Source: Albugo candida (lineage: Eukaryota; Oomycota; Peronosporomycetes; Albuginales; Albuginaceae). From it: a stretch of DNA of 64,000 bases. Below, one piece after another: positions 27,166-62,366 of the stretch; within the stretch, counting starts at the first letter, position 1, and every line of letters starts with the position of its first letter. The notes beneath the pieces were generated by a model. It was not told where the DNA came from, did no database searches, and saw nothing but the letters and a program-made list of their open reading frames with translations. The stretch spans positions 1 to 64,000 of the forward strand of contig CAJNAR010000195.1 in NCBI GenBank assembly GCA_905220665.1, given 5' to 3'. Position numbers and translations under genes: made by a program.

Positions 27166-27179
27166 GCCTTCCTAGCTCA
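27166..27179 (+). repeat. tRNA 5' stub, left target duplication of LINE E
   Basis: GCCTTCCTAGCTCA is followed directly by the LINE E 3' terminus (GTTGCAGTTG). Its partner at 48483-48496 differs at one base (GCCTTT). It is the founding left end of the LINE array. Confidence 0.85.
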
Positions 27180-27228
27180 GTTGCAGTTGTATATATTACT
27201 AGAATTAAAAGTAAATGACTTCTTTGAA
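27180..27228 (-). mobile_element. LINE E, terminal 49 bp of the 3' end (cut off by the gypsy element)
   Basis: The plus strand reads GTTGCAGTTG then ATATTACTAGAATT and GACTTCTTTGAA, matching the conserved 3' end of the other LINEs with a few changes. The rest of the element resumes at 41680 (CTAAATGCCTAG), exactly continuing the sequence seen intact in C at 55489-55512. Confidence 0.88.
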
Positions 27229-27616
27229 TGTAACGTGGTTACACGTCGCTTAGAAACCGTTACGTAGTGTTGTATACATTTGGGACGCTTTGGGTTATTC
27301 GCTATAGGAGCTGACGCGTGTCACCCACCGGATATTGGTAACTAGGTTTGGTAGGTTTAGCGTAACGTACTCTTCGAGATAATAAAAAAAAAAAAGTTGG
27401 CCTTTAGATCAGTTAGAGACACGTCCCTGCTTCAGGCGTCTCAGATCTTGTGCACTTTGTGCTGTGTTGTCCATTCCCGGAATCGTTAGGTTCCTTGAAC
27501 AAGGACCTTAAGCTTCAAGGCTTGCTGACTCGTTCAGTCTAGTTCTTTTAAAGAACTAAGTTGCTCGTTTAGCAGATAGCATTCCTCTTGAAAGGAGTTA
27601 GAGTAGCTCCGCTACA
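27229..27616 (+). repeat. 5' LTR
   Basis: A 388-bp LTR starting TGTAACG and ending GCTACA. It includes an AATAAAAAA-type A-rich tract at about 27382 and the conserved blocks ACACATTTGGGACG-like and GGAATCGTTAGG shared with the 3' LTR. Confidence 0.93.
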
Positions 27617-27618
27617 CG

Positions 27619-27635
27619 TGGTAGCACTCGTACTC
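27619..27635 (+). promoter_or_regulatory. Putative primer-binding site
   Basis: Two bases after the LTR, TGGTAGCA could pair with a tRNA 3' end (initiator-Met type acceptors end in TGCTACCA). The match fades beyond eight bases, in keeping with decay. Confidence 0.55.
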
Positions 27636-27675
27636 AATCTACACGTGAGTTTGTGAAGACTGATCCTCTGTGAGG

Positions 27676-28636
27676 ATGGAACAGCCCACTTCCCTCTCTG
27701 AGGCACAAAGGGTTTCGCTTGACAAGCTGACCGCACCAGTGGGCCCCGAATATGTGGAGTTTCTTGTTTAGCAAGGCCCGGACGTGTTGAATGCACGTCT
27801 TGAGAGCTTCATGCAGTATGAAACGTCCCTATTAGGGCAGGTCTGAGACCAAATGGCGTCGGCTATGCCAACACGCTTTGTGTCTGTTACCAGACGAAGA
27901 GGGTAAGCCTCGTCCAGTAAAGTTGGATGTCCGTCACTTCTCCGGTAAGGAAGGTGAAACCTAGTCTTCTGGATTTGTGAGGTAGAAATGGCCATGAAGT
28001 CTGGGATGATCTCGGTTGAGCATCAGTGGGTCTCGCTGACGGTCAACAAGCTCGATGGTAGAGCTAGAGAATGGGCGCTGACGTGCGGTACGTCAGTGGG
28101 CATGGTGTTCCCCACATGGGCTCGCTGAAGTTGCAACTCACGCGCGTCTTTGCGCCGCCTAATTAGTCATATCGCGTGCGGTCACGCTTCTTGTCTAGCC
28201 GTCAGGGTAAGAGCGAATTGTCGGACTATGTCCAAGAGTCGAAAACACTCATAGCTGCTATGCAGAATGAGTCTCTTCCTGAGCTGATCCATGTGACCGT
28301 GTTAATGGAAGGGCTTCGCACTGGCGTTGAAAGAAACTAGTCTTTCAAGTTCACCCGTCTAGCTTTGATGAAGCGTTCGAAATAGCTCAGAATGCTGAGC
28401 ACAACTTTTAAGTCGGCTAGACTTGGTTAGAATGGGTATAATCCAGGTTCTGCGAGAACATGCTCTATGAGTACATCGGCTTTTTGTAAGCATGAGCCTA
28501 TGGACCTTAGCAATGCTGAAGGTGAAGCCGACCTTCAAGTTGCTAAGCAATACCGCGACATCTGTCGATGCTATTCGTGCGGGAGCACTGACCATCTGCG
28601 TCGCAGGTTCCCGTTGCGCAAACAGCGCCAGGCTCA
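27676..28636 (+). pseudogene. Gypsy gag remnant (capsid and zinc knuckle)
   Basis: The frame opens at the ATG at 27676 (MEQPTSLSEAQ) but has stops near 27765 and 27845 and frame changes before 28200. Later, readable capsid-like text includes SELSDYVQESK and LPELIHVTVLMEGLR. Near the end EPMDLSNAEGEAD precedes a CCHC knuckle (about 28568-28612) with C, C and H in place but the final Cys changed to Phe. LINE B interrupts the frame just after the knuckle at 28636. This would be the nucleocapsid end of Gag; it is non-functional here. Confidence 0.82.
28622..28636 (+). repeat. Target duplication of LINE B, left copy
   Basis: ACAGCGCCAGGCTCA is repeated exactly at 35607-35621. It ends in GGCTCA, like the tRNA stubs, but lies inside the gypsy sequence. 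Confidence 0.93.
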
Positions 28637-28955
28637 GTTGAAGGTGTCTATATTACTAGAATTAGACTAACTGACTTCTCTAGTTGCCTAGGCTATCTTA
28701 AATAACATATATACATATAAAAACGTTTCGAGAATACCTGTGAGAGTTGATAATATGTCCCTCGTTGCTAGTTCTGCAGTGCGGTAGCGTTCACCACTAC
28801 AGTACGAGAGTGTGTCCATCGTGTAACGGATAGATGTTGAAAGTTGTAAAGTTGTTAAGTGGTAAGCTTGTAAAGTTGTAAAAATGGTCCAAAAGTACCG
28901 TGGTTTGCAAATTGGTGTGCGCCACACTTCGGTGAGCATAACCAGCCAACTAGGA

Positions 28956-31900
28956 CTAGGATCCGAGTTGCACTTGCCGTTCCACTCGCCTGTGCCGGAC
29001 CCGCAGCAATGATCTTCGACTTCTGAAAAATCCACCAAATGATCCTTGCGTTTTGAGTTGATCCAGTACCTTTGCAAGCCGAATGCGTTCCTCTTGGTCG
29101 TAACACTGTCTTCGAAAGTACCGAACGTGCGCACTAAACGTGGTGTAAATGACGGAAAGTGCTGGAACTGTCGGAGTTGCTGATCGATGATCGAACAAAC
29201 GACGATTCCGATCTGTCCAGACGAAGTGCAGTGTCACCGCTTGCAATGCAAGCCATAAATCTGAGATAATTGATAAATAATCTTTCCAATCCAACCGTAG
29301 TGTTGGTACGATTGCACATGCAATATGCGTCCAACGTGGTCGAGAGGAGAAAAACTGATCCCAACTAGGGAGTAACTCTCTCCATAACTGTGCCGTGTGA
29401 TCGCACTCTAGAAAGAGATGTTGATCGGATTCCACTGCCCCACACGAAGGCTGCGTGCACAAGATTGGTAATACACGTTTTCGAAGATGCCGTGATGTAG
29501 CCATAAAAGTTCGAACTCGTTCTGAATCCAGTGCGTCCGATCTCTCCCGTGATGACCAATGTGTCGACATCGGATGACTCTTGGTTGGTTCGGGTGGTTT
29601 CCAGACGATTCGTGAGAGTTGTGAGCGTGGAATAGATGCAAAATAATGTTTCCTTTCCTTGCTTTTTACTCCCACATAACATGATCTGCCACTTGTAGTT
29701 GGTATAATCCAAGTGATGAGACCAATCGTCGAGTGGATACGCTGGAGAATATGAGTGATTTCATTGTAAAGTCGACTCAGCAACTTTTCTTCAGACATAT
29801 CCGACGTGTTCTGCTCTTCGTCGTTGTAATAGTTGGCGACGAAATCTTCCTTCGTTGGCCATGTGTCGCTTTCACGAAAAAAGTCTTGCAAACTTCGAAC
29901 GTCGAAAAGTGTAGCAAACGTTTTTCGAAATGTTCGATGTGGTTCATCCACCATGCCAAGATTGTACCAAACGTTCTGTGTACTCGGATGACGAGTAGCA
30001 GCTTCGTAATGTAATTTTTGGTCGCAGTGAAACCACATCGGCTGTTCCATGTAGTACTGACGGCGTTGTGAAACATTTAAATCTGATATTGAAATGCTCC
30101 AATCCATCTGATGCCACATTCTAAATGCTTGTTTCCACCATGATGATATGCTCTCCCATTGAACCATTTTTCCATGTCGATTTGGTGCGATGGTGAATAT
30201 ATCCATCGGCTTGTTTGGTCCAAAGGGAGGCTGGATAAGTTGTAGTAATTCCGTCGAAGCTGTTGTCCAATTCGCAGGAATAATTGTTGACGCATCGGAT
30301 GCGAACTGCTGAAGGAATTGAATACGTTGTAGCTTTAGTCGTCCCACCAAAAAAGGAACTTGTAGTCCACCATCTTGTCGGCGAAGATATAAAAACTCTT
30401 TGCTGAGTAGGTGAACATGTTTTGAATCTTTTTTGTGTTTCCGACCAAGCACAAATCGATTTAACATCGATTGCCACTGTCGAATTGTCGCTGCTGGTAT
30501 GTCTACGTGCATCGTGTAATGCCACAAACGTGATAAAATCATCGTCTGCGCAACCAGTAGTCGACCACGGACAGTTCGTGCTCCTCGAAACCATACACCA
30601 AACCCATCGTAAAAACGCTTGTCGAGAGTTGAAATAACCATCGAGTGAGTTGGTTTCTGGCCGAACGGAATACCCAAATACTTGACCGAATCCTCCGGAC
30701 CCATTATGGTCAAATTGGGAATACATGGACATGGCTTGGTCCGATTCAACGAGAGCAAAGATGATTTACTCAAGTTGAGTTTCGCACCCGATCCATCGCA
30801 ATAGACTTGGACGAGTTCGAGTTGCGTCAAAACACCATTTGGTGTCTCTGAAAGCAATGTCGAATCGTCCGCAAAAAATAATCCAGTTGCGACCGTCGTG
30901 CTATTAATCCAAATGCCATGTTCTTCATGCTGTCGAAGTAAATTTCCCAAAGGTTCGATCGTCATCAGAAAAAGTAATGCTGAGAGAGGATCACTTTGTT
31001 TCACTCCACGTTGTGGTGTAATGGACGGTGTGATATTTCCATTAATCATCAACTGCGCCTTTTTGTTTTTGTACAAAAGACGAACCCAGTCGATGAAACT
31101 TTTTCCAACGCCCATCTTTTCCAAAACGCGAAACATGTACGTCCAATTGACTCGATCATAAGCTTTCTCAAAGTCGAGAAAAGTCGCATAAGCTTCCTCC
31201 CCACGATGAGTGACCAAGTCTTGGATGTCGGTGAGATGTCGAATATGATGATGCATTGACCTTCCTCGCACAAATGCTTTTTGATCTTGATGGATCAATT
31301 TCGGCAAAAAACGTTGCAATCGATACGCCAACACTTTTGAAAGTACTTTTACATCGACACAAAGCAGTGCGATCGGTCGATAGTTGCCAGGATCACCTCG
31401 TGATCCTTTTTTGTACAATAATGTTATTGCCGAGTGACGTTGTGATCGAAGTAGAATTCCTCTTTCCAGCTGATATTCGAACACGATCTTCAGACACTCG
31501 CCAAACGTTTCCGGATCAAGCTGATAAAATGCAGCTGGTAGTCCATCCATACCTGGAGAAGAACTACTCCGCATGTGCTTGATCGCTTCCGCCATCTCGG
31601 TCGTACTTAACCGAGTGGAGAGACGGTCTTGCTCTGCTGAGGCAAGTGAAACTTGAATCGAATCGAGTAACTTTTTTTGCTTTCTTTCACTTGGAACATT
31701 TGAGTCGGTCTCTGAGCTATAAAGAGAGCCCATGACACCACCCCAATGATCTCTGAATTCGTCAATAATCTCCCTCGGGTTCGATGTCACGGTACCACAT
31801 TTTTTTGTAACATTTTCGATCGGCACGCGACGACAAGAACTATCCGGAGGGCGAAAAAAATGCTTTGAAGAGTTTTCCATATGCTTCACGTGATGGTCGA

Positions 31901-33047
31901 AGCTTTCATCTTGGTTGTATTTCGCGTTGTTTTCGACTGAAATTCGAAATTGTTGGAGACTCGATTCGTAAAAGTACCGTGACTCATTGGTGTCGTGGAT
32001 GCGATATCGAGCTGCTGCGACTTCCAAAACACGCTGGCTAGACTCAACATCGCGTCGGCTATCTTGTGCAACCTTTTTTTCGATTCCTTGAAGCTGTTTC
32101 TTGATTTTCGTCTTCCAACTTTCCCACATTTTACCGGGATTCGAAGTTGTCCGTAACTGGTTGAGCACCAAATTCGCTTCCAATTTGATTGCTTCGACAA
32201 CTTTAGGATATTCAAATAGTCGTAATGAGCATTTCCAATATCCTCGACCGGATGATTGAGTTGGATTTGCAAAAGTTTCTTTTTGTGCCAGATGATCTCC
32301 CGCATGTCGTGGACGAAAATACGCAGAGCTTTTGTATACCATATTGAATAGCTCTTCCGACATGCAGATATAATCTAATCGATTCTTGCGCGGTAATGGT
32401 CCTGTAAATACTTTTTCAGTCGGATGTTGGATTCGCCAAGCGTCTACCACACCCAACTGTGAAAGCCATTCCAAACACGCTAATCGACTTGGTTCGTGTC
32501 GAATTGTTCCACTCGAAGCATCGATAGCTGGATCGAGTGGTGTGTTGAAATCACCAAATACGATATGTGTTGCGGTCGATTCGAAAGTGTTGGAAAGCAA
32601 TAACTCATAAAAACCTACTCGTTCCTCGGCCGTGACCGGTGCATATACATTGTGAATATACACCGGTGCATCGTGAATGAGAAGACGCAGAACCAAATAA
32701 CGATTTCGAATGCTTCGATCGGTAAGTTCTTCAGCTGTTGAGTAACCGGGAAAGTCCGAACGAAGAATTGTCATGACGCCACCACTGCGGTTTTGAGTCG
32801 GATGTAGAAATGCACTGTTGTGATCATTGACAAACATTTTGTGCTGCATTTTTGAGGATAATAAAAACTGAAATGAGTCCAGTTGGTTGTGATCGTGAAA
32901 CTTGGTTTCTTGAACACAACAAATGGAGTGTTGTGATAAGATGTGGTCGATAAATAGATGACCATGTTTATGAATTCCATTAACATTCACCGTGAGTGCT
33001 GAGATATTGTTCCACGTTGAAATAATCGAGGAGCCCTTAGCATTCAC
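28956..33047 (-). CDS. LINE B ORF2: endonuclease-reverse transcriptase, open
   Basis: The frame is 1363 codons with no interruption. The AP-type endonuclease (residues about 15-260) shows NVNG at 21-24, E47 in ETKF, GDFN at 165-168, RLDY at 223-226 and DH at 251-252. The RT (about 495-790) shows SPGMDG (498-502), GNYRPIAL (554-561), LDFEKAYD (D625), GVKQSDPLS (681-689, Ser where QGDP is usual) and FADD (725-728). Near the C-terminus lie a CCHC motif (C-X4-C-X7-H-X4-C) and WTDRNRRLFD. An in-frame loss of about 30 codons just before the CCHC motif is shared with B'. There is no ATG at the start: the first possible codon is GTG at 33047, overlapping the ORF1 stop, so initiation by frameshift or reinitiation is inferred. 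It would copy LINE RNA at a nicked target. Confidence 0.9.
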   Translation of the reverse strand: MNAKGSSIISTWNNISALTVNVNGIHKHGHLFIDHILSQHSICCVQETKFHDHNQLDSFQFLLSSKMQHKMFVNDHNSAFLHPTQNRSGGVMTILRSDFPGYSTAEELTDRSIRNRYLVLRLLIHDAPVYIHNVYAPVTAEERVGFYELLLSNTFESTATHIVFGDFNTPLDPAIDASSGTIRHEPSRLACLEWLSQLGVVDAWRIQHPTEKVFTGPLPRKNRLDYICMSEELFNMVYKSSAYFRPRHAGDHLAQKETFANPTQSSGRGYWKCSLRLFEYPKVVEAIKLEANLVLNQLRTTSNPGKMWESWKTKIKKQLQGIEKKVAQDSRRDVESSQRVLEVAAARYRIHDTNESRYFYESSLQQFRISVENNAKYNQDESFDHHVKHMENSSKHFFRPPDSSCRRVPIENVTKKCGTVTSNPREIIDEFRDHWGGVMGSLYSSETDSNVPSERKQKKLLDSIQVSLASAEQDRLSTRLSTTEMAEAIKHMRSSSSPGMDGLPAAFYQLDPETFGECLKIVFEYQLERGILLRSQRHSAITLLYKKGSRGDPGNYRPIALLCVDVKVLSKVLAYRLQRFLPKLIHQDQKAFVRGRSMHHHIRHLTDIQDLVTHRGEEAYATFLDFEKAYDRVNWTYMFRVLEKMGVGKSFIDWVRLLYKNKKAQLMINGNITPSITPQRGVKQSDPLSALLFLMTIEPLGNLLRQHEEHGIWINSTTVATGLFFADDSTLLSETPNGVLTQLELVQVYCDGSGAKLNLSKSSLLSLNRTKPCPCIPNLTIMGPEDSVKYLGIPFGQKPTHSMVISTLDKRFYDGFGVWFRGARTVRGRLLVAQTMILSRLWHYTMHVDIPAATIRQWQSMLNRFVLGRKHKKDSKHVHLLSKEFLYLRRQDGGLQVPFLVGRLKLQRIQFLQQFASDASTIIPANWTTASTELLQLIQPPFGPNKPMDIFTIAPNRHGKMVQWESISSWWKQAFRMWHQMDWSISISDLNVSQRRQYYMEQPMWFHCDQKLHYEAATRHPSTQNVWYNLGMVDEPHRTFRKTFATLFDVRSLQDFFRESDTWPTKEDFVANYYNDEEQNTSDMSEEKLLSRLYNEITHILQRIHSTIGLITWIIPTTSGRSCYVGVKSKERKHYFASIPRSQLSRIVWKPPEPTKSHPMSTHWSSRERSDALDSERVRTFMATSRHLRKRVLPILCTQPSCGAVESDQHLFLECDHTAQLWRELLPSWDQFFSSRPRWTHIACAIVPTLRLDWKDYLSIISDLWLALQAVTLHFVWTDRNRRLFDHRSATPTVPALSVIYTTFSAHVRYFRRQCYDQEERIRLAKVLDQLKTQGSFGGFFRSRRSLLRVRHRRVERQVQLGS

Positions 33048-34461
33048 GCTGAAGTGGACCAGTAATCAACCTCATTTCACCCTCTTGTTGTGAGAGGTGA
33101 AGTGTTGTGTGCTCCTCTGGAAAAAAGCTGAGATTGACGGAAAGCTCAGCGATGTCACCATGGAGAAGTCCACGCCATCTACCTCCAAACCATTGCGACC
33201 AACACTTTATGCCAACGTCGGAGCGGAAGAAGGATATGATCACATTGGTTGGAAGTAAACGACAATGATGACCCGGAATCCAGATCACTGGTCCATCGGT
33301 GAGATATTGGATCCAGTGGTCGTTGGTGTAGAATGTCGGAGCAGTACACATGAATAAAAGTTCCAACAACGCGAGGGCTTTCGTTGCTCGAGTCAAACCG
33401 ATAACGATGTCCGGCACTGACGTCCACCACGACATTACTTTCTCGAACAGAACAGATCGCTTGGAGGGAACTTTTCCACCAACGTGGCGACTCCATCGCG
33501 TCGCAAACGTAACATCTTCGCCGAGATTGTGAGTTGCAAAAACGCGATTTATCATAAGTAGATGAGCCACTTCATCCAAAGCTTTATCATTCGACTCCAT
33601 ACACGAAAGTAGCACACCATTCATCGTGATCGGATGATCAAGTGCCGCTCGGATGATTTTGTCCGGATTTGTGCAGAACTGGATTAGCGTCCGCACATGA
33701 GGGATGCAAGAATCCGCTTGAACCAGCTTGTCCGGTCGGAGTGAGTGAAGGGCATTTTTCGAATCGATTTCCATCAGCTCCCCTATTTCACCAACTCGGG
33801 TTGGTCGTTCCGATTTCTCGATTGTTGTATGACGTTTTTGATAAAAGTGTGCCGCCTCTTTCGAGGTGGCCACCTCTTTTGGCATCCGTGCTTTCACGGG
33901 GATGATTTGAACGCGATTGCCATTCTCTGGATTGGCAACCGCTGTTACTTCTTCGATCTCCACCTCCATAGTTGCGAGCACGGAAAAATAGTTACTCGTC
34001 GCTAGTTTTGGAAGCGCAAGAGGTGGTGCTTTGGAGACCATTTGGTCGAACGGCTCCACCCGATTACGTTTTCCACTCGTCCAAGCCAACTTCATGGATA
34101 CATCCCCATCCCGCTCTACCCGTGGTTGGGAGTATGACTGACTGGTCAGTTGGAGGATGGGGGGTGTGGGTTGCAATAAAGCTTGTGCTCCTGGTGGTGT
34201 GATAGTGGGGGAGTGTTGAGCTCCAACGAGATTTGATCGGAGAGCTTCCGGTCGGGTTTCCTCGCTTTCAATTCTTGACTGAGAACTGGCTTCACTACTT
34301 TTTGTGGTGCCACCACGAGCTCCGTTGGCGCGTTTGTTTGTTTTGGTTGCTGGTGTGGTTTTTGTTGCGGTTGATTTTGAATGTGGTTTTGCTTTTTCTT
34401 TTGCTTGTTCGATTGTTGTTGCCGTGCTCCCGTGGTTGATATAGCGCACAAATCCAAGCAA
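33037..34461 (-). CDS. LINE B ORF1, second part (frame b, 474 codons)
   Basis: The frame opens in a Lys/Thr-rich linker and runs through the second conserved ORF1 block: SNYFSVL, TSKEAAHFYQKRHT, RPTRVGEI, LELLFMCTAPTFY, HWIQYLT, then a Trp-rich end. It stops with TAA at 33037-33039, inside the start of ORF2. The start at 34461 is only the first start-like codon; I infer that this is the C-terminal half of ORF1. B' has the same arrangement. An A-rich run (34392-34398 on the plus strand, GAAAAAG on the sense strand) lies in the overlap and is a possible slip site, unproven. Confidence 0.7.
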   Translation of the reverse strand: MLGFVRYINHGSTATTIEQAKEKAKPHSKSTATKTTPATKTNKRANGARGGTTKSSEASSQSRIESEETRPEALRSNLVGAQHSPTITPPGAQALLQPTPPILQLTSQSYSQPRVERDGDVSMKLAWTSGKRNRVEPFDQMVSKAPPLALPKLATSNYFSVLATMEVEIEEVTAVANPENGNRVQIIPVKARMPKEVATSKEAAHFYQKRHTTIEKSERPTRVGEIGELMEIDSKNALHSLRPDKLVQADSCIPHVRTLIQFCTNPDKIIRAALDHPITMNGVLLSCMESNDKALDEVAHLLMINRVFATHNLGEDVTFATRWSRHVGGKVPSKRSVLFEKVMSWWTSVPDIVIGLTRATKALALLELLFMCTAPTFYTNDHWIQYLTDGPVIWIPGHHCRLLPTNVIISFFRSDVGIKCWSQWFGGRWRGLLHGDIAELSVNLSFFPEEHTTLHLSQQEGEMRLITGPLQREC

Positions 34462-35513
34462 TAAGGACCACGTTGACCAAAACGTGGTCGTTCCGTTGGA
34501 ATAGGAGCATTCTTACCCCGTACTGGGTAGAGCTGTTTGTCGTAAGCGATTTGTTCAATCACTTTACCAACTCGAACCAGTTGTTGGGGGCACGTCAAAC
34601 TACCGAAGTAAACTCGCCAAGTCGACATCACCACTGCCTTCGTGGGAATCGTCTCGCGGAAGGTGTCATACACCACTTGACATCCTAGTTGGTGAAGAGC
34701 ACGGAGAATGTTGTTCCGTTCTTCCTCCACGCCTACGCCGAAAACATCGAGGTAGTACTTTGTTTCAAGAGTATCAAACTCCCGAAAAAAGTACTTCTCC
34801 CCAAGGATAGTCACCGGCTGACACTCCAACTGTTGGCAGGCATCCGCTGTGGTGACCATCACTCTGATGTTTCCCCCAGGCATTTTGGACACTTGAGCGA
34901 TTGACCGGCTCTCCAGTAAACTTTCAAAGACCGGATTGCCGTGGTCTCGCATCAGAGAGGATAAAATTTTCCCATTTGGAGTACGGGTCAAGGACTGGCC
35001 CGTCTCCAAGACCATCGGGAAGGTTGCTTTCCGGATTTGGAAAGGTCTTGCTGCTTCCAATTTAGCAGACAAAACCGACCAAGCCGGGTGCTCCCCATCA
35101 GCATATAGCTGCAGGATAACCTCGATATCCGAGGCTTTCGGCTTTGCGAGCTCCACGCGAAATTTCGCCCGAGCTCTAGCCTGGTCCTTACGCAAGGACT
35201 CCTGTGACATGATCAGGTCCGCAAGCGTGGGACTTTTAGTGTCGTCCACACTTGCAGTTGCCTTTGGGTCACCCTGTGACGAGGCAACGACAGTACCGCA
35301 TGTACCACCGGTATCAGATCCGACTCCGGTAGTACCGGTATGAACCTGTACCGTCACACTGGGGGTGGGGGTACTTTCCACGTCATCACACAGGGGTGAT
35401 GACTCATCAACAATCATGCAATCACCCAAGGCTGGGTGACTCATGAGGGTTGCCACGTCACTACAAGTGGACGCTAGCACCCTGGGTTGTGTCGATATGT
35501 CGACTTGAACCAT
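34146..35513 (-). CDS. LINE B ORF1, first part (frame a, 455 codons)
   Basis: It starts at an ATG (MVQVDIS) that aligns with the ORF1 starts of C, E and P. After a Ser/Thr/Pro-rich N-terminus comes the conserved block (about residues 100-360) with KMPGGNIRVMV, FFREFDTL, LGCQVVYDTFRE and MSTWRVYFGS. A Gln/Lys/Asn-rich linker follows, then a stop at 34146. In C the same protein continues without a break to 828 residues. Here the C-terminal half lies in another frame (34461-33037), requiring a net -1 shift within a 316-nt overlap. It probably binds the element RNA; no CCHC knuckle or RRM signature is visible to me. Confidence 0.75.
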   Translation of the reverse strand: MVQVDISTQPRVLASTCSDVATLMSHPALGDCMIVDESSPLCDDVESTPTPSVTVQVHTGTTGVGSDTGGTCGTVVASSQGDPKATASVDDTKSPTLADLIMSQESLRKDQARARAKFRVELAKPKASDIEVILQLYADGEHPAWSVLSAKLEAARPFQIRKATFPMVLETGQSLTRTPNGKILSSLMRDHGNPVFESLLESRSIAQVSKMPGGNIRVMVTTADACQQLECQPVTILGEKYFFREFDTLETKYYLDVFGVGVEEERNNILRALHQLGCQVVYDTFRETIPTKAVVMSTWRVYFGSLTCPQQLVRVGKVIEQIAYDKQLYPVRGKNAPIPTERPRFGQRGPYCLDLCAISTTGARQQQSNKQKKKQNHIQNQPQQKPHQQPKQTNAPTELVVAPQKVVKPVLSQELKARKPDRKLSDQISLELNTPPLSHHQEHKLYCNPHPPSSN

Positions 35514-35606
35514 TGTTTTCGAGAGGAAGGAGTTGAAAAAAGTTGTTTTTTCGAGTTGTTTTTACTAAATTGGCGGGTTACTTAGTAGCCGGCGAATTGA
35601 GAAGTC

Positions 35607-35621
35607 ACAGCGCCAGGCTCA
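35607..35621 (+). repeat. Target duplication of LINE B, right copy
   Basis: Exact 15-bp partner of 28622-28636. Gypsy sequence continues with TATGAGTCGAG. Confidence 0.93.
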
Positions 35622-36286
35622 TATGAGTCGAGTACCCGCTACTATCCTGAAACCTGGTATGGCGAAGGGAGACGTCCGGTCACAGTAGGTGCGAAGCACC
35701 CTACTGGGGAAGAACTAGGTTCTGTGGGGCCATCGGAGGTGGAGGTGAGCAGGGCTTAGCCCCAAAGAGCTCTGTGCCTGCGAGCAGGGATCGTGGATAC
35801 AAGCCAGGCTTTTTAGTCGCAGAGGCGATTGTGAAAGGCTTTCATAAGCCATTGTCGGTTTTGATCGACTCTGGAGCGTCATGCAATAACGCTCGACGTA
35901 GTTTCCTGGAAGGGAGTCAGCAATACGCTGAGGCGCATAAAGCGCATGAGGGGGATTTGATCTCTGATCGCTTAGCAGCTGGTATTCGTATCACCGTGCC
36001 TAAAGTTCCGTTGAACTTATGGTTAAAGTTTTTGGACTTCGACAGCATTGAGCACTGTCTTGTCCTAGATCTATATTCGAGATATGATCTGATTCTAGTT
36101 ATGACCTGGCTTGAACGCCATGAAACATGTATTGATTGGAGGTATAAGACATTAGGCGCAACGCACGTTGTTCCGAACGAAGCTGTGGCGAGTCACGACC
36201 CCACCTTTGCTAGGCAACAGAAGCAGTTTGGGCGCGATCCACTGACAGAGGGGTGTCTGGGTGCTGGACATTGGAGTCTGAGTTAA
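35622..36286 (+). pseudogene. Gypsy aspartic protease region
   Basis: The open part (35774-36286) contains LIDSGAS (active-site D-S/T-G, about 35861-35881) followed by a retropepsin-like fold ending with YDLILVMTWLERHE. The usual G before the second hydrophobic core (LGM) reads V here. The frame ends at 36286. The preceding sequence (35622-35770) has stops. It would process Gag-Pol; this copy is disconnected from gag by LINE B and from RT by stops. Confidence 0.8.
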
Positions 36287-36443
36287 TTAACTCCAATGCT
36301 GACGACAATAGTCCCGAGGGCAGCTCGCTAACTGCTAGTGATACGGCGTGTACTCCGTTGATTAAAAATCATTGTGATAATGAGTCATTGAATGCTGATA
36401 GCATTGGGAACCTACTTCCGGATCATTCTGAGCTGAGCTCTAA

Positions 36444-36720
36444 GGATGTGCGTGGAGTGGCACGTAAAAATTCACAGAGTGGGGTAGGCCGTGATGGCAC
36501 CACACTTAATGTCGGTAATGACATTGTTGGCGAGATGCCGAGTCATCAAGGATGTCATTCTTCTGATGCGCGTGGAGTGTCACGTAAAATTCCACAGAGT
36601 GAAGTCGGCTGAGATGGCACGACACTGAATGTCGGTAATGACATTGTTGCCGAGAAGCCAAGGCATCCAGGGTTATGTCCGGTTGATGCACGTAGAGTGA
36701 CTCGTAAACGTTCACTGGAT
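36444..36720 (+). repeat. 120-bp tandem repeat between protease and RT of the gypsy element
   Basis: Blocks starting GATGTGCGTGGAGTG (36444), GATGCGCGTGGAGTG (36565) and GATGCACGTAGAGTG (36685) give about 2.3 copies with 120-121-bp period. In the pol frame each unit would be 40 residues (for example DARGVSRKIPQSE). Stretch 36721-37328 is decayed pol linker in which I see no defined domain. Confidence 0.8.
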
Positions 36721-38136: not shown

Positions 38137-38151
38137 AGTCTCCTTCATGCC

Positions 38152-52879: not shown

Positions 52880-55346
52880 GCTGAAGTGGACCAGTAATCA
52901 ACCTCATTTCACCCTCTTGTTGTGAGAGGTGAAGTGTTGTGTGCTCCTCTGGAAAAAAGCTGAGATTGACGGAAAGCTCAGCGATGTCACCATGGAGAAG
53001 TCCACGCCATCTACCTCCAAACCATTGCGACCAACACTTTATGCCAACGTCGGAGCGGAAGAAGGATATGATCACATTGGTTGGAAGTAAACGACAATGA
53101 TGACCCGGAATCCAGATCACTGGTCCATCGGTGAGATATTGGATCCAGTGGTCGTTGGTGTAGAATGTCGGAGCAGTACACATGAATAAAAGTTCCAACA
53201 ACGCGAGAGCTTTCGTTGCTCGAGTCAAACCGATAACGATGTCCGGCACTGACGTCCACCACGACATTACTTTCTCGAACAGAACAGATCGCTTGGAGGG
53301 AACTTTTCCACCAACGTGGCGACTCCATCGCGTCGCAAACGTAACATCTTCGCCGAGATTGTGAGTTGCAAAAACGCGATTTATCATAAGTAGATGAGCC
53401 ACTTCATCCAAAGCTTTATCATTCGACTCCATACACGAAAGTAGCACACCATTCATCGTGATCGGATGATCAAGTGCCGCTCGGATGATTTTGTCCGGAT
53501 TTGTGCAGAACTGGATTAGCGTTCCGCACATGAGGGATGCAAGAATCCGCTTGAACCAGCTTGTCCGGTCGGAGTGAGTGAAGGGCATTTTTCGAATCGA
53601 TTTCCATCAGCTCCCCTATTTCACCAACTCGGGTTGGTCGTTCCGATTTCTCGATTGTTGTATGACGTTTTTGATAAAAGTGTGCCGCCTCTTTCGAGGT
53701 GGCCACCTCTTTTGGCATCCGTGCTTTCACGGGGATGATTTGAACGCGATTGCCATTCTCTGGATTGGCAACCGCTGTTACTTCTTCGATCTCCACCTCC
53801 ATAGTTGCGAGCACGGAAAAATAGTTACTCGTCGCTAGTTTTGGAAGCGCAAGAGGTGGTGCTTTGGAGACCATTTGGTCGAACGGCTCCACCCGATTAC
53901 GTTTTCCACTCGTCCAAGCCAACTTCATGGATACATCCCCATCCCGCTCTACCCGTGGTTGGGAGTATGACTGACTGGTCAGTTGGAGGATGGGGGGTGT
54001 GGGTTGCAATAAAGCTTGTGCTCCTGGTGGTGTGATAGTGGGGGAGTGTTGAGCTCCAACGAGATTTGATCGGAGAGCTTCCGGTCGGGTTTCCTCGCTT
54101 TCAATTCTTGACTGAGAACTGGCTTCACTACTTTTTGTGGTGCCACCACGAGCTCCGTTGGCGCGTTTGTTTGTTTTGGTTGCTGGTGTGGTTTTTGTTG
54201 CGGTTGATTTTGAATGTGGTTTTGCTTTTTCTTTTGCTTGTTCGATTGTTGTTGCCGTGCTCCCGTGGTTGATATAGCGCACAAATCCAAGCAATAAGGA
54301 CCACGTTGACCAAAACGTGGTCGTTCCGTTGGAATAGGAGCATTCTTACCCCGTACTGGGTAGAGCTGTTTGTCGTAAGCGATTTGTTCAATCACTTTAC
54401 CAACTCGAACCAGTTGTTGGGGGCACGTCAAACTACCGAAGTAAACTCGCCAAGTCGACATCACCACTGCCTTCGTGGGAATCGTCTCGCGGAAGGTGTC
54501 ATACACCACTTGACATCCTAGTTGGTGAAGAGCACGGAGAATGTTGTTCCGTTCTTCCTCCACGCCTACGCCGAAAACATCGAGGTAGTACTTTGTTTCA
54601 AGAGTATCAAACTCCCGAAAAAAGTACTTCTCCCCAAGGATAGTCACCGGCTGACACTCCAACTGTTGGCAGGCATCCGCTGTGGTGACCATCACTCTGA
54701 TGTTTCCCCCAGGCATTTTGGACACTTGAGCGATTGACCGGCTCTCCAGTAAACTTTCAAAGACCGGATTGCCGTGGTCTCGCATCAGAGAGGATAAAAT
54801 TTTCCCATTCGGAGTACGGGTCAAGGACTGGCCCGTCTCCAAGACCATCGGGAAGGTTGCTTTCCGGATTTGGAAAGGTCTTGCTGCTTCCAATTTCGCA
54901 GACAAAACCGACCAATCCGGGTGCTCCCCATCAGCATATAGCTGCAGGATAGCCTCGATATCCGAGGCTTTCGGCTTTGCGAGCTCCACGCGAAATTTCG
55001 CCCGAGCTCTAGCCTGGTCCTTACGCAAGGACTCCTGTGACCTGATCAGGTCAGCCAAAGTGGGACCTTTAGTGTCGTCCACACTTGCAGTTGCCTTTGG
55101 GTCATCCTGTGACGGGGCAACGACAGTACCGCTTGTACCACCGGTACCACATCCTACACCGGTAGTACCGGTATTACCCTGTACCGTCACACAGGGGGTG
55201 GGGGTACTTTCCACGTCATCACATAGGGGTGATGACTCATCACCAATCATGCAATCACCCAAAACAGGGTGACTCATGAGGGTTGCCACGTCACTACAAG
55301 TGGACGCTAGCACCCTTGGTTGTGTCGATATGTCGACTTGGACCAT
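52869..55346 (-). pseudogene. LINE B' ORF1, two-frame plus an extra frameshift
   Basis: Frame a runs 55346-53979 and frame b 54294-53470, overlapping exactly as in B. An added T near 53521 (GCGTTCCGC versus GCGTCCGC in B) breaks frame b, whose C-terminal part continues as 53588-52869. Conserved blocks are the same as in B. The N-terminal acidic/Ser-rich segment carries several substitutions relative to B, more than elsewhere. Confidence 0.85.
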
Positions 55347-55438
55347 TGTTTTCGAGAGGAAAGAGTTGAAAAAGGTAGTTTTTCGAGTTGTTTTGTACTA
55401 ACTTGGCGGGTTACGTAGTAGCCGGCAAATTGAGAAGT

Positions 55439-55452
55439 GCCTTTCTAGCTCA
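55439..55452 (+). repeat. tRNA 5' stub between LINE B' and LINE C
   Basis: GCCTTTCTAGCTCA, identical to 48483-48496 and 62353-62366, with LINE 5' end to the left and LINE 3' end (GTTCAAGG) to the right. Confidence 0.93.
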
Positions 55453-55613
55453 GTTCAAGGTGTCTATATTACTAGAATTAGACTAACTGACTTCTCTAAA
55501 TGCCTACACTACAATAAATAACATATAATACATGCAGATGTGGCTTGAAAATCACAAAGAGTGGACTTGGTGCGGTTGAAGACGGTTGAGTAGACTAGCC
55601 ACTCAACTCAGAC

Positions 55614-58600
55614 TTATGAGCGCGCACGCCTTCGTATCTTGAGAAGATCTGATCTCCCGGAGAAATATTTTTTTGCTGAACCTGATTGCAATAGGGCGAG
55701 TAAAACCATCTGAAGCTGATCAAGCTGTGTGGGATCATAGCACTGACGTGGATAAAACCGAATATGGGCGCTGAGAGAACTGTAGATCACCGAAACAGCT
55801 GGTCCTGTTGGTGTTGAAGATACTTGGTCGAAAAGTCGTCGATTCCGATCCTTCCAGATGAAGTGGATCGAAATGGCAACCAATGCAAACCAAAGATCTT
55901 CCAACACCATCCTGAATGGCTTCCACCTATCACTAAGGTGAGGAAGTCGTAGACACGCAATGTGCGACCACTTCGGTCGAGCTGAAAAGAAAGCTATCCA
56001 AGAAGGAAATAGCTCCTCCCAAATTGGGTATGTCCTACTACAGTCGAAAAACAGATGCTGGTAACTTTCCACCTCACCACAATGCTCCTGTGTACACAGG
56101 ATGATTTCCGGATGAGCTTGCTTCAGAAACCAGAACCGGGATCGCACTGGTAACATTGAATATGTAAGTTGGAGCTGAATGTCCGAGTATATTGGTAATA
56201 AACGTCCTCGAAGACGTTTAAAACCCGTTGAGAAATCCTTTACCCAAGTCGAAGCACTTGGCCGGTCTCTCTCTGGTATGTGAAGCAGCAGTGGGTGAGG
56301 CTTGTCCGGTGGTTCTGCTTTCCCAACAACTCGAAAGAGTTGATTCCGAGGAATTGTCGGAAAGAAAACCTTCGTATCCGAAATTTGAATGCCAAACTGA
56401 ACCGGATACGCCTTTGCAATGGAACGCTCTGGACACAACAAAACGCCCTCCGGTTGAATGCGACGTAAAATTTGAGTAGCTTCCACCTACAAGCGTCGTA
56501 AAAGCTTTGTCTTGGCTACGTCCGCTGAATTTCCAACTGCATGCGTACTGAAACGCAAGACAAACTCGGAAGACGAATTGAACCAAGTTGATCTTCCACC
56601 GAACAAATCACGTAGAGAACGGATGCGGAACGCTTGAGCGAACTGCATCCTAAAAGTACGCGCAGGTTCCGGGACCATTCCCATACATCGACGATGAGCA
56701 ACCGCACTAGTAGAACGTTGCCGTTGCTTAAACTGAAGATGAGAATCCACCTGCAGCCAGACAGGAGCATTTAACATAACGATGTATTGCTCCTGTGAAG
56801 ACAAGGTCTGGGGTGTGAGTTCCCACTTACTCTGACTCCACCAAACGCACTTCTGCTTCCACCACGATGACGCTACATTCCAGCGAACCATGGTAGCATG
56901 CCGACGTGGTGATATCGTTAAGATATCAAGTGGCTTGAACGGTCCAAAGTTGGGTAAGATGCTCTTCACAATTTCCATACCAGGCAATGTCCAGTTGCTT
57001 GGAACAGGTCTACTGCAATGTAGTGCAAATTGTTGTAGAAATTGGAGTCGTTGCTTCATTATTTGCTTCTCGATCATCGGAACCTGTAAACCACCTTGTG
57101 AATAAGGCAGATATAAAAGTTCCGATCGAATGAGCTGCACGTGTGTTGAATCCCTCTCATACTTTCGACTCAACACAAATCGATTTAACATCGATTGCCA
57201 ACGTCGCAGTAAATGTTGTGGGATATCAAAATGTGTCGTAAAATGCCATAATCGTGACAAAACCATGGTCTGCGCCACCAATAAACGTCCACGCACCGTT
57301 CTTGCTCGACGAAACCACTGACGAAAACCACCATAGAAACGATCTTCTAGGAATTCAATCATCAAATCACTCACTGGTGATTGACTGAAAGGAATTCCCA
57401 AATACTTGACCGACTCGCACTGTGATAGAACTTTCACTAAAGCGAACGGCTGACAGGCTTGATGACGGTTAAGAGGAAGTAAAGTCGACTTTGAAAGATT
57501 TAACTTTGCTCCTGAACCATCACAATAGTGTTGAACGACATCAAGCTGAGCCTCCACCCCACCGAGCGAAGACGATAACAAAGTCGAGTCGTCCGCAAAG
57601 AATAAACTGGTTGATGTATCCATTGGAGTGATACAAATACCAGGTCCTTCATGTCTCCGCAACAAATTTCCCAACGGCTCAATAATCATAAGAAAGAGCA
57701 ATGCGGAGAGTGGATCACCTTGTTTGACTCCACGAGAAGGAGTGATCTTTGGTGAAAGCGTTCCATTCAACAACAGCGAAACATTCGTGTTGGTGTATAG
57801 AAGCTTTGTCCACTTGATAAACGAATTTCCGCAGTTCATTTTCGAAAGCACAGCAAACATGTACGACCAATCCACTCGATCGTACGCTTTCTCAAAATCG
57901 AGAAAGGTTGCATATGCTTCCTCGCCACGATGAGTGATCAAATCTTGTAGATCACTCATGTATCGAATGTGGTGGTGGATGGATCTGCCTCTCAGAAATG
58001 CTTTTTGGTCTTCGTGAATCAATTTCGGAAGCATTTTCTGGAGTCGATAGGCAAGTACCTTTGACAGCACTTTCACATCCACGCATATTAATGCTATAGG
58101 ACGATAGTTGCCAGGATCTGCTCGTGATCCTTTTTTGTAAAGCAACGTGATTGCCGAACTACGCTGAGAGCGCAGCAGAGAGCCTCGACGAAGTTGATCG
58201 TCAAAGACAATTTGTAAACATTCACCAAAGACACTCGGAGCAAGTTGGTAGAATGCTGCCGGCAATCCATCCATTCCAGGTGATGAGTGTCCGCGCATAC
58301 TTTTGATGGCTCCTTCCATTTCCGATTTAGTTAGTGGAGCAGAAAGAAACGACTCATCAGAGCTGTTTAATGTTTTGGTAATTGAGTCGATAAGCGTTTG
58401 TTGTTTTTGAATGCAAGGACGGAGTGGGACTCCAGCTGAACTTTCCTTATCACCCATAATTCCACCCCAATGATCGGTGAACTGAAGGGTGATTTCAAGT
58501 GGATTCTTTGATACTTTGCCATTCGGAAGGAGGACTTCTTCCAATGGCACCCGATGACAAGTTGAATCCAGCGCACGAAAGAAGTATCTCGATGATTTCT

Positions 58601-59810
58601 CCACATTTCGCATCTGGTGGTCGAACGCGGAGTCTTGATTGTACTTTGACGAGCTCTTCACTCGTTCGTGATAAGAATGAAGAGCGTCCTTGTAAATCTT
58701 CTTTTCTTTTCTCTGATCGGACATTCGATAGGCGGATGCAGCATGTTCCAACTCCGATTGCGCTCGAACGATCTCATCTTCCCCTTGACGTCGAATCATT
58801 TTTTGAATTTGCTGAAGTAAACGCTTCATATACTTCTTCCAACGCTCCCAATCCTTTCCGGGACTGGAAGAAGCACGAAGCTTTTCCAAAATGCGTTCCG
58901 CGTCGACTTCGATCGCCTCGATGATTACTGGGTACTCGAATAGTGAGAGAGGACATTTCCAGTAACCACGGCCCTGAAGTTGGCTCGGATTTGCAAACTT
59001 GAGTACATGTGCCAAATGATCCCCCGTGTGAGGAAGGGTGGCATAATTTGAATCCTTATAAATTGTACGGAATAGGTGTTCCGAAAAAAGAATGTAATCC
59101 AATCGATTACGTCGTGGCTGAGGGCCAGTAAAGATACGCTCTTCGGGATGCTGGTGACGCCAAGCATCGAGAACACCCAAGTTTGAAAGCCATTCCAAAC
59201 ATGAGAGGCGACTTGGTTCATGACGATATGCACCACTTGAACAATCCAGACTTGGACAGAGAGTTGTGTTGAGATCTCCACAGACGATATGAGATGCGTT
59301 TGCTTCGAATGATCCAATTGGAAGCTGATCGAAAAAAGGTTTTCGTTCCGTTGAATCAACCGGAGCATAAACGTTGTGGACGTATACTGGTGCTCCATGA
59401 ACCACCAAACGAACTACCAGATAACGATCTTGAACTGTGACATTGTGCACGGCTTCAGCAGTTTGAAATCCGGGAAAATCGTTCCGGATAATGGTCATAA
59501 CACCGTTTACTCGTTCCCGAGAGGGGTGAGAGTGAAGACTATTCGTATCACTGATAAACGATTTAGTTCTGAAGTTCGATGTCAGATGAAAGCGAAACGT
59601 CTCCAGGTGTTGACGATTACGAAAACGTGTATCCTGCACGCAACAAAGTGCGTATTTTGAAAATGTATGTTGGATTGCAAGGTGACCATTCTTTTTGATT
59701 CCGTTTGTATTGACTGATAGAATGGTTTTATTGGTCCAAGAATTGTAATCCGATAAGCTTCCCTTAATACTGAACCGAGAGAGCACCCACAACGAGTGTT
59801 TGTACTCCAT
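55614..59810 (-). CDS. LINE C ORF2: endonuclease-reverse transcriptase with one nonsense codon
   Basis: The frame from 59810 to 55614 (1398 codons) is interrupted only by TAG at 56487-56489, where E has TAC (Tyr in LLRRLYVEATQ). The stop follows the RT, so a product lacking the C-terminal CCHC motif (CTQEHCGEVESYQH then C) would still hold endonuclease (NTNG, ETR-type Glu as DTRF, GDLN, RLDY, GDHLA) and RT (LDFEKAYD, GVKQGDPLS, FFADDSTLL). In the DTRF position the usual Glu reads Asp, as in E. Unlike the other copies, C has an ATG at 59810, 47 nt inside the end of ORF1. Confidence 0.88.
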
Positions 59811-62250
59811 CTACTTCGCTCAGTTGCAAAATAGACACTTCATCGGGTAGAAAATTTGTCGAAAGCTGAATGGCTTCCAAATTGTCGTAAAGGGGACTAT
59901 CCCACTGCGCATCAAACCACTCACTAAGGCAAAGTGTGCCTAGTGGGGAGCGCAGTATCATAATCAGTGCATTGGTGTGTAGTAAGCGACAATGGTGTGT
60001 CGGTATCCACAGCACCGGTCGACCAGTGATGTGTTGAATCCAGTGGTCATTATGAAAAACTGCCGGAGCAGTGCACATCAGCATGAGCTCGAAGAAGGCG
60101 AGCGATTTGGTGGCTCGAGTGAGCTCTTCCACTTCAGGTGACTCCGTCCACCAACTATTGGTTGCGTCAAACATAGCTTGACGTTTTGTTGGAACTTTTC
60201 CCCCAATCTTTTTCGACCATTTTGTAATGAAAGTGGTGTCCAATTTCGGCTCGGATGCAGCAAGTATACGATTGATCGTGTGTACTTGCACCACTTCAGC
60301 TAAACACGGATCATTGAATCGCATACCCTTATTGAGCACTCCATGTAATGCAATCGGATGATTAAATGCGAACTGGAGAAGGCTATCTCCATTGGACGTG
60401 AATCCAAGATGCTTCTCCGCCTTGGACACGTGAATGTCCGCTTGGAGAAGCCGATCGGGCTTCGTTGGGATCTGTGCCGTCAGTAGATCTTCTGCCAACA
60501 AGTTCACCACTTCACCCACGCGAGTAGGACGAGAGTCCTTCACGATTTTGGTGTGCTTCTTTGTGAAAAAATGCGCCGCTTCTTTCGACGTAGCTACATC
60601 TTTAGGTACCACAACATTGGTCGGAACGATATGGTAGCGCTTTCCGAACGCTGGATTGGTCGTTACATCTATCTTTGTATATTCCACATCGATAGTGCTA
60701 AGCACATCAAAAAAATTGCTGGTGGCAAGCCCTTCCAATTTTTTTGGAGGAGCTTTACTGAGCAGGCTTTTGAAGCTGTCTAACGAGCGGTTTCTTTTGT
60801 TGTTTGAGCGAACAACTGTCCAAGAATCCGGTTGTGATTCTTCAGCTTGTTTTGATTCCTCAGCAGGTTGGGAATCACTGCTTCCAAGCTTCTCTTCCGG
60901 TTCTGAAACAGGCGACGTAGATGCCTTCTGGTGATGGTCCGATGTATTAGCTTCGGTAGTTGTCAGAGGACAGAATGTTTCGTCAGTTTTGGATGTACTT
61001 TTAGCATTACTTGAGGTAGATTTTCTTTCTTTATCTTTTATGTGTTGCTTCTCTTGAGCTGGTTTTGTTGTTTTTCCGGTGCGCTTGCTTGGCACCGATT
61101 TAGATTCAGTTGTTGGAGTCGGGGGCTTCGTCGCTCGCTGAGTCGAGTTCGGAGTGTTCACTGGCAGCAATAAGCAGTGTGGACTGCGCTGACCCATCCT
61201 CAATCGCTCAACAGGTAACGGAGCCCCTTTTCCGCGAGCCAAATAGTATCTCCCTTCGATACAAATTTGTTCGCAAACTTTTCCAGCCACGACCAGAGGT
61301 TTAGGACATGACGTGGAGCGAAAATACACTCTCCACGTAGACATGGTTAGCCGTTTAGAAGCTACAGCTTCACGAAAGTTTTCATACAAAACATCGCAGC
61401 CAAGACGATGCAATGCTGATGCAACTGTTATTGTGGACATTTCCGGTCCAATTCCGAAAACGTCCATGAAGTAGCGTGACCCGAGCACATCGAACTCTCG
61501 GAAGGAGTACTGGTTCCCCATGAGGGCAACCGTCTCATGAGCCAACTTCTGGCAAACTTCCTCGCTCGTGACGAGAAGGCGTAAATTACATCCAGGCAAT
61601 TTAGCCAGTTGGCCAATTTTCCCCGCATCAAATAACTCGTCAAGGATCTTGTTCCCATGATCTCTAACGAACGATTGTAGGATTTGGGCGGGTGGTGAGC
61701 GTACAAAAGTTTGTCCCGTCTCCAGGACAATCGAAAACTTTGCACTTGGTAGCATAAACGGCTTTGCTGCCGCCAAGTGTACAGCCAAAACATCCCAGGA
61801 CGGACGTCCGTCTTGAAAGAGTTGTTCGATAGCACGCAGATCTGATGCTAAAGGTTTTGGCATTTCAACCTTCCACTTCGCTTTTTTTACAGCTTTGTCC
61901 TTGCGTGCTTCTTCTTGACCTTTCAAGATTTCGGCTAAACTTGGACGATGGTCGGTTTCACACGCCGTTTCAACCGGTTTCGAAGCTGATGACGCGGTGT
62001 TGTCATCAACCTCCATTGGCACCGGCTGATTGGCAGAAATTGGAGTGGCAGAGAGAGGCGTCTCTATCTCCATCTCGGTCTCGGATTGGCCAATAACCCC
62101 AGCGGACGCGGTAGAGTCCGACGGTAGAGGTGTGGCAGTAGCTGTACTTTCCGCCGGTAACGTGTCAGTAACGGACACATTACATGTAGAAGTACTACCC
62201 ACATCAGGCGATGTAACGATAGGTAAGCTGGATATGTCGATAGTAACCAT
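59764..62250 (-). CDS. LINE C ORF1 protein, intact 828 codons
   Basis: ATG at 62250 (MVTIDISSLP). Residues 1-100 are Ser/Thr/Pro-rich and acidic. A conserved block follows at about 100-362 (RPSLAEILKGQEE, KFSIVLETGQ, KLPGCNLRLLV, YSFREFDVLG, LGCDVLYENFREAV, MSTWRVYF, MGQRSPHCLLLP). Residues about 363-480 are a Lys/Ser/Thr/Gln-rich linker. The second block runs to the end (TSKEAAHFFTKKHTK, RPTRVGEVV, FFELMLMCTAP, HWIQHITGRP, SEWFDAQW). I find no CCHC knuckle or known fold by eye. By analogy with other LINEs it should bind element RNA. Its last 47 nt overlap ORF2. Confidence 0.9.
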   Translation of the reverse strand: MVTIDISSLPIVTSPDVGSTSTCNVSVTDTLPAESTATATPLPSDSTASAGVIGQSETEMEIETPLSATPISANQPVPMEVDDNTASSASKPVETACETDHRPSLAEILKGQEEARKDKAVKKAKWKVEMPKPLASDLRAIEQLFQDGRPSWDVLAVHLAAAKPFMLPSAKFSIVLETGQTFVRSPPAQILQSFVRDHGNKILDELFDAGKIGQLAKLPGCNLRLLVTSEEVCQKLAHETVALMGNQYSFREFDVLGSRYFMDVFGIGPEMSTITVASALHRLGCDVLYENFREAVASKRLTMSTWRVYFRSTSCPKPLVVAGKVCEQICIEGRYYLARGKGAPLPVERLRMGQRSPHCLLLPVNTPNSTQRATKPPTPTTESKSVPSKRTGKTTKPAQEKQHIKDKERKSTSSNAKSTSKTDETFCPLTTTEANTSDHHQKASTSPVSEPEEKLGSSDSQPAEESKQAEESQPDSWTVVRSNNKRNRSLDSFKSLLSKAPPKKLEGLATSNFFDVLSTIDVEYTKIDVTTNPAFGKRYHIVPTNVVVPKDVATSKEAAHFFTKKHTKIVKDSRPTRVGEVVNLLAEDLLTAQIPTKPDRLLQADIHVSKAEKHLGFTSNGDSLLQFAFNHPIALHGVLNKGMRFNDPCLAEVVQVHTINRILAASEPKLDTTFITKWSKKIGGKVPTKRQAMFDATNSWWTESPEVEELTRATKSLAFFELMLMCTAPAVFHNDHWIQHITGRPVLWIPTHHCRLLHTNALIMILRSPLGTLCLSEWFDAQWDSPLYDNLEAIQLSTNFLPDEVSILQLSEVDGVQTLVVGALSVQY

Positions 62251-62352
62251 TGTCTTCGACAGGAAAGGGTGGAAAAGTGCGTGTTGTTGTTGAAAAGTCG
62301 CTTTGTTGTATTCGTTTTGCGGGTTACGTGGTAGCCGGCAAATTGAGAAGTT

Positions 62353-62366
62353 GCCTTTCTAGCTCA
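62353..62366 (+). repeat. tRNA 5' stub between LINE C and LINE D
   Basis: GCCTTTCTAGCTCA; right duplication of C and left duplication of D. Confidence 0.93.

Follow-up and report, generated by a model that had tools for sequence, protein, structure and literature searches.

Organization of the locus

The sequence analyzed here (the window) comprises nucleotides 1–64,000 of contig CAJNAR010000195.1 of the oomycete Albugo candida, and the 38.9-Mb genome that contains it was the space for the genome-wide searches. The window carries a series of long interspersed nuclear elements (LINEs) that are bounded by a 14-mer, GCCTTYCTAGCTCA, and the analysis concerns the use of transfer RNA (tRNA) genes as landing sites by these elements. 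Six exact copies of the 14-mer lie on the + strand, at 18412, 19996, 27166, 48483, 55439 and 62353. When up to two mismatches are allowed, the count in the window rises to seven, whereas 100 shuffled sequences contained 0.51 matches on average and never more than 3, and a chance 14-mer is thus ruled out. The original prediction placed the six copies correctly and took all of them for LINE boundaries. Each is indeed an element boundary, but the copies at 19996 and 27166 flank a short interspersed nuclear element (SINE) as its two target duplications; the former is also the 5′ boundary of the truncated LINE E1, and the latter the 3′ boundary of LINE E3. All LINEs of the window are on the − strand except E2. 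The features are as follows.

18412–18425 (+): target duplication of 14 bp (tRNA nucleotides 1–14), 3′ boundary of LINE E1, located by the 14-mer search
18426–19995 (−): LINE E1, 5′-truncated, flanked by two 14-mers (18761–19998 matches 62594–63835 at 88%)
19996–20009 (+): target duplication of 14 bp, 3′ boundary of the SINE and 5′ boundary of E1
20010–20317 (−): 3′ part of the SINE, comprising the tRNA-like head, which contains the B box, and the tail, which ends ...GAACACTCTTAAC
20303–20317 and 27146–27160: 15-bp duplication around E2
20318–27145 (+): LINE E2, full length but decayed, in the A box of the SINE
27161–27165 (−): 5′-most bases of the SINE, past E2
27166–27179 (+): target duplication of 14 bp, 5′ boundary of the SINE and 3′ boundary of E3
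27180–48482 (−): LINE E3, split by an element resembling a long terminal repeat (LTR) retrotransposon (about 27229–41680)
28637–35607 (−): LINE E4, off tRNA, inside the LTR-like element, with the duplication CAGCGCCAGGCTCA at 28623 and 35608
48483–48496 (+): target duplication of 14 bp (GCCTTTCTAGCTCA, nucleotides 1–14 of tRNA-Lys)
48497–55438 (−): LINE E5, full length, 6942 bp
55439–55452 (+): target duplication of 14 bp
55453–62352 (−): LINE E6, full length, 6900 bp, of a lineage that differs from E5 but has similar ends
62353–62366 (+): target duplication of 14 bp
62367–64000 (−): LINE E7, running beyond the window to the next 14-mer at C193:69432

The elements are LINEs of the apurinic endonuclease (APE) type with two open reading frames (ORFs). 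The second, ORF2, combines an endonuclease domain (PF03372, Exo_endo_phos) with a reverse transcriptase domain (PF00078, RVT_1), both above cut-off in 42259–45975, 28956–33047 and 56487–59810, and no RNase H family was detected at E values up to 0.001 in the 16 ORFs scanned. Among relatives of solved structure, the best match is L1 ORF2p (E = 4.8e-49), ahead of R2 (3.4e-20); a separate search with the endonuclease portion returned no significant match. By this measure the LINEs appear nearest to L1 among the solved relatives. All named relatives of the LINEs are proteins of oomycetes (Globisporangium, Plasmopara, Peronospora and Lagenidium), with ORF2 mostly about 48–57% identical in the first three genera, and no relatives with flanks were found in viral contigs. 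A host among the oomycetes, and not the plants, is also indicated by cox3, for which the best named matches are Plasmopara and Phytophthora at 77–78%. Insertion was accompanied by 5′ truncation and target duplication, as seen in E1, which is truncated between 14-mers, in truncated copies at a tRNA-Met gene (C3) and a tRNA-Ala gene (C164), and in the duplication around E4.

E4 and E5 are 98.1% identical, whereas E5 and E6 share 57% identity over the aligned middle columns, 98% over the last 45 columns and 85% over the first 60. Sequence conservation confined to the ends in this way points to constraint or to exchange of ends. E5, E6 and E2 represent diverged lineages with nearly identical last 45 nucleotides and similar first 60. 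The LINE 5′ sequence ACTTCTC has its complement, GAGAAGT, close to the 3′ end, and none of four 3′ ends folded into an RNA hairpin clearly better than shuffled sequences.

The 14-mer is the 5′ end of a tRNA-Lys gene

A search of the genome with a tRNA model identified a gene at 71.3 bits (G000:C149:458119–458191, − strand) that ARAGORN assigns to tRNA-Lys(UUU) and that begins GCCTTTCTAGCTCAGTTG. The proposal that the 14-mer has the layout of tRNA nucleotides 1–14 is thereby borne out by an intact tRNA-Lys gene of the same genome. A LINE 5′ end (...AAATTGAGAAGT) lies one base upstream of nucleotide 1 of this gene; the 14-mer recurs at a LINE 3′ end at C149:465258–465275, at a distance of 7084 bp, or one LINE length. 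This layout indicates that the tRNA is complete on the 5′ side of the LINE, with a 14-nucleotide stub on the 3′ side. The Lys-like identity suggested earlier is correct for the 14-mer of the window but too narrow for the target, since tRNA genes for ten amino acids are used (see below).

The LINE 3′ end, ...CTTCAAC, is joined to A14 without poly(A). Insertion after A14 inside the A box, as the original prediction had it, holds at many tRNA genes, with the 3′ end after A14 and the 5′ end at nucleotide 1. The arrangement is, however, not invariable: E2 lies within the A box of the SINE without a 14-mer, and E4 within the LTR-like element at CAGCGCCAGGCTCA. Past the duplication, the target of E4 continues TATGAG and not GTTG, while the target of E2 in the SINE A box reads CGTTTG. 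Because the two targets continue differently, the GTTG that follows A14 belongs to the element; a requirement for GTTG after the cut is ruled out by the target of E4.

Insertion joints across the genome

Antisense TRGCTCA adjoins a LINE 5′ end at 85 places in the genome, compared to none for the reversed-pattern control. At 80 of these joints the adjoining sequence is a tRNA 14-mer (76 exact, 4 with one mismatch), and five have other sequences. The distance from the LINE 5′ end to nucleotide 1 is zero bases in 40 joints, one in 28, two in 16 and three in a single case. LINE 5′ ends number 283 at up to two mismatches (control, 0), and the LINE 3′ end has 507 matches (control, 20). In four contigs (C64, C74, C149 and C164), the joint 14-mers within one array belong to different tRNAs, such as Tyr then Phe or Ala then Lys, as if segments had been exchanged between arrays.

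Occupancy of tRNA genes

A second survey began from the tRNA genes and not from the LINE joints. The upstream flanks of 32 nuclear genes were inspected, 31 of them found by the tRNA-model search and one, Ile (C32), by its A-box pattern. Mitochondrial tRNAs (contigs C134 and C196) and two genes on other contigs that looked organelle-like by eye (L036 and L086) were dropped before counting.

Twenty-one genes have a TRGCTCA A box, and 16 of them carry a LINE (13) or a SINE (3) at nucleotide 1. A full LINE 5′ end lies 0–3 bases from nucleotide 1 in 12 genes (five Lys, Met C150, Ile C42, two Thr-AGU, one Asn on C29 and two Phe), a truncated LINE adjoins one (Met C3), and the SINE adjoins Ile C32, Cys C185 and another Asn on C29. 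All three genes with a GGCTTA or GGCCTA A box are occupied (two Thr-UGU and Arg-CCG). By contrast, none of the eight genes with a GCGCA or GTGTA A box (Ala-UGC, three Gln, Val and three Arg) has an element at the A14 joint. The difference between 19/24 and 0/8 is significant by Fisher's test (p = 1.2e-4); inclusion of L036 and L086, which lack a LINE at nucleotide 1, gives 0/10 and p = 2.3e-5.

Three Tyr genes with introns and two Ala-AGC genes were left out of the 32 because they were sought after their 14-mers had shown up at LINE joints. All five are occupied, one Ala gene by a truncated LINE. ARAGORN recognized tRNA-Tyr in all three Tyr genes when introns were allowed, and misread or missed them otherwise. 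Overall, tRNA genes of ten amino-acid types, distributed across many contigs, carry an adjoining LINE or SINE.

A tRNA-headed SINE at the same site

The SINE of the window (20010–20317 plus 27161–27165, − strand) lies between the 14-mers at 19996 and 27166 and is split by E2. Its tRNA-like head contains a GGTTCGAATCC B box, and the head of the copy in L002 is classified as tRNA-Arg by ARAGORN. Similar copies (89% identical) lie upstream of tRNA-Asn, Ile and Cys genes. Copy L118 has tRNA-Asn on one side and a LINE 5′ end on the other, and is flanked on both by the same 16 bp, composed of nucleotides 1–14 of tRNA-Asn and two upstream bases. The tails of the SINE and the LINE are alike in their last bases only (ACACYCTTAAC and ACACCTTCAAC, respectively). 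The SINE may be mobilised by the LINE machinery.

The SINE-tail pattern has 133 matches at up to two mismatches, and its genome count is noise because the reversed control exceeds it (238). Among the one-mismatch matches listed, 11 of 13 continue TGAG. Many SINE 3′ ends (in L114, L115, L117 and others) are joined to CCGTACCCAGCTCA, which in L117 resembles by eye the A box of another tRNA-like repeat. On contig C136 (L120 and L121), the SINE tail occurs in head-to-tail repeats of ~147 bp with the tRNA-Lys 14-mer at each joint.

Proposed mechanism and alternatives

The preferred landing site of these LINEs is very probably the core TRGCTCA (also GGCTTA and GGCCTA) of the A box, the internal promoter element for RNA polymerase III (pol III), in tRNA genes. 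The duplication, of 14 to about 17 bp, covers nucleotides 1–14, so the copy at the LINE 5′ end, together with nucleotides 15–73, forms a complete tRNA gene that reads away from the LINE, and the copy at the 3′ end is left as the 14-nucleotide stub. Restoration of the tRNA gene by the duplication is the main consequence of the arrangement and was absent from the original prediction. The finding is also broader than that prediction, in that the A box serves LINE and SINE alike as a landing site in many tRNA genes.

In the proposed mechanism, the endonuclease would nick the sense strand of the tRNA gene between A14 and nucleotide 15, a position deduced from the joining of the first-strand cDNA to A14 of the sense strand. 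Reverse transcription of the LINE RNA would be primed from the 3′-OH of the nick, starting at the ...CTTCAAC end, and cleavage of the second strand would take place 14 to about 17 bp upstream, either at nucleotide 1 or immediately 5′ of it. Since the rebuilt gene keeps the site, it would stay open to further LINEs and to the tRNA-headed SINE, and repeated landings would give rise to head-to-tail arrays with one 14-mer per joint, as in the window. We consider it likely, with a probability of roughly 0.75, that an APE-type LINE of at least two diverged lineages and a SINE, all of which enter many isotypes after A14, use tRNA genes as docking sites that repair themselves and can be used again. 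With a stagger equal to the spacing between the cut and nucleotide 1, every insertion would rebuild the gene, and arrays would grow without gene loss while the LINE 5′ end becomes the upstream region.

Several observations weigh against the A-box landing-site model. A tRNA-like flank is present at 26 of 100 listed LINE 3′ ends among the 507 (zero-mismatch matches with a terminal purine on contigs up to C170, a set biased against array joints), and the remaining 74 have none. Unrelated flanks at most copies, which would have spoken against tRNA targeting, are thus found in part, and the specificity has to be regarded as a preference. Twenty of the 100 were retrieved and the LINE 3′ end was recovered in 19, three at tRNA 14-mers and 16 off-site. 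In the aligned 3′ part, 11 of the 16 off-site copies share 90% identity or more with one of the window LINEs (best, 98.7%). They come from the same LINE families, which makes the preference strong but leaky and not a strict rule. The joints in arrays can have been multiplied by recombination or segmental copying, so that the 85 are not independent events. On the side of the genes, five of the 21 TRGCTCA genes (Trp, Cys C158, Thr-CGU, Asn C162 and Ile-UAU) lack a match to either element within 300 bp, and the tRNA-model search scored 63 of 1851 candidates, leaving the tRNA list incomplete. Finally, Gln-UUG (L025) and Arg-UCU (L081) have LINE sequence in the same orientation that ends 45 and 49 bp upstream, respectively; with both counted as occupied, p rises to 0.0099.

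How the site is recognized admits two further accounts. The endonuclease may read RGCTCA only, with the excess at tRNA genes due to the survival of harmless insertions. This agrees with the bases kept at the 100 listed 3′ joints (T in 94, G in 93, A in 83 and G in 65, mostly TGA or TGAG) and with the insertion of E4, with the same duplication, at GGCTCA in non-tRNA sequence. However, the genome contains 2028 TRGCTCAG octamers on both strands (reversed control, 3573), compared to 26 identified tRNA genes with a TRGCTCA A box, yet 80 of the 85 TRGCTCA joints are tRNA 14-mers. Sequence preference alone is thus insufficient unless selection removed nearly all other insertions, and survival would have to explain everything. 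We consider this account less likely than not. Alternatively, the pol III machinery (TFIIIC/TFIIIB) could recruit the LINE, as in Dictyostelium TRE5, with the endonuclease setting the exact base; a mechanism of the TRE5 kind would involve contact of ORF1 with TFIIIB and dependence on the B box. The joints are concentrated at tRNA genes and in the A boxes of tRNA-like repeats, and a precedent exists in TRE5-A, which requires the B box (PMC5391098); on the other hand, E4 inserted off-site without a tRNA, and the GCGCA and GTGTA genes, presumably also bound by pol III factors, are empty at the A14 joint (0/8), which indicates that sequence matters. We give recruitment even odds. Recognition probably combines a sequence preference of the endonuclease with some property of tRNA genes, such as pol III factors or chromatin; the latter is proposed because joints are far more numerous at tRNA A boxes than at other TRGCTCAG octamers. 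Selection against harmful insertions elsewhere could contribute.

It is unlikely that a few insertions, multiplied by unequal recombination or segmental copying, account for most of the array growth and thereby inflate the apparent targeting. The alternation of different tRNA joints within single arrays fits such an origin, as do the two 3′ ends spaced 2535 bp apart in each of C164, C149 and C12. Set against this, LINE or SINE copies abut tRNA genes of ten amino-acid types in many contigs, and lineages only 57% identical over the aligned middle columns use a common 14-mer site in the window. That the 14-mer is part of a non-tRNA repeat has practically no probability left: although no tRNA or Rfam match was found inside the window itself, intact tRNA-Lys genes elsewhere in the genome start with it, and their identification by both the tRNA model and ARAGORN refutes a non-tRNA source.

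Other features of the window

The left quarter of the window (1–17900) consists of a tandem satellite with a unit of about 456 bp, for which 34–37 copies per repeat family are reported. The LTR-like element (27229–41680) lies within E3 and itself carries E4. It was recognized by its terminal direct repeats (27229–27617 and 41290–41680), which are 88.8% identical.

Comparison with known systems

Retrotransposons of compact genomes are thought to land beside tRNA genes as safe sites. The LINEs described here enter the internal promoter, where the damage is reversed by the very duplication that they produce, in parallel with the phage and island integrases that restore tRNA genes in bacteria. For 16 of 21 TRGCTCA tRNA genes, a retroelement now constitutes the immediate upstream region. 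The system represents a natural case of harmless insertion at a pol III gene, explains the arrays of LINEs and SINEs beside tRNA genes, and allows the reading of an A box by an APE endonuclease to be tested directly. The original prediction considered insertion in the A box with duplication of nucleotides 1–14 to be undescribed; in agreement, the parts available of the literature outside subscription papers and Repbase yielded no account of an A-box LINE that restores the tRNA by duplication.

Dictyostelium TRE5 and TRE3, listed as L1 type and tRNA-targeted, share with the present elements the two-ORF architecture with APE and reverse transcriptase and a strong preference for tRNA genes (PMC5911963, PMC5391098, PMC5006619). 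TRE5 lands 40–54 bp upstream and TRE3 40–150 bp downstream of tRNA genes (PMC5911963), and both end in poly(A) (PMC5911963, PMC5006619). In Albugo, by contrast, the element lies 0–3 bp from nucleotide 1, nucleotides 1–14 are duplicated and the cut is inside the gene, apart from the two odd cases at 45–49 bp; in place of poly(A), ...CTTCAAC is joined to A14. NLTR-A of Dictyostelium purpureum lies 2–6 bp upstream of the tRNA coding sequence in 16 tabulated cases (PMC5911963) and belongs to a separate reverse transcriptase lineage with an RNase H domain (PMC5006619). Its position resembles that of the present LINEs and could reflect a similar arrangement. NLTR-A differs in having RNase H after the reverse transcriptase, a domain not detected in the 16 ORFs scanned here.

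Zebrafish Dewa is a member of the Tx1 clade. It is likewise a target-specific, tRNA-linked LINE, but its site is the tRNA-Leu spacer (PMC3706591), whereas the present LINEs insert after A14 inside the tRNA. The planarian LIN15_SM and LIN25_SM are specific for tRNA-Arg and tRNA-Glu genes, respectively (PMC4640811); they stand among relatives of the NeSL clade, with a restriction-like endonuclease in the framework of that paper and one isotype each, in contrast to the APE and many isotypes found here. Oomycetes also contain Utopia, a target-specific LINE with a restriction-like endonuclease that targets the gene for U2 small nuclear RNA (PMC4640811), and thousands of tRNA genes or clusters of tRNA-like SINEs are reported for P. 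infestans and P. effusa (PMC9584435, PMC11540230). The Dada DNA transposons insert inside tRNA genes, with the A box (nucleotides 8–13, TAGCTC) as one of two main regions (PMC8869645). They are not retrotransposons, and differ from the present LINEs in their DDE transposase and duplications of 6–7 bp (PMC3706591).

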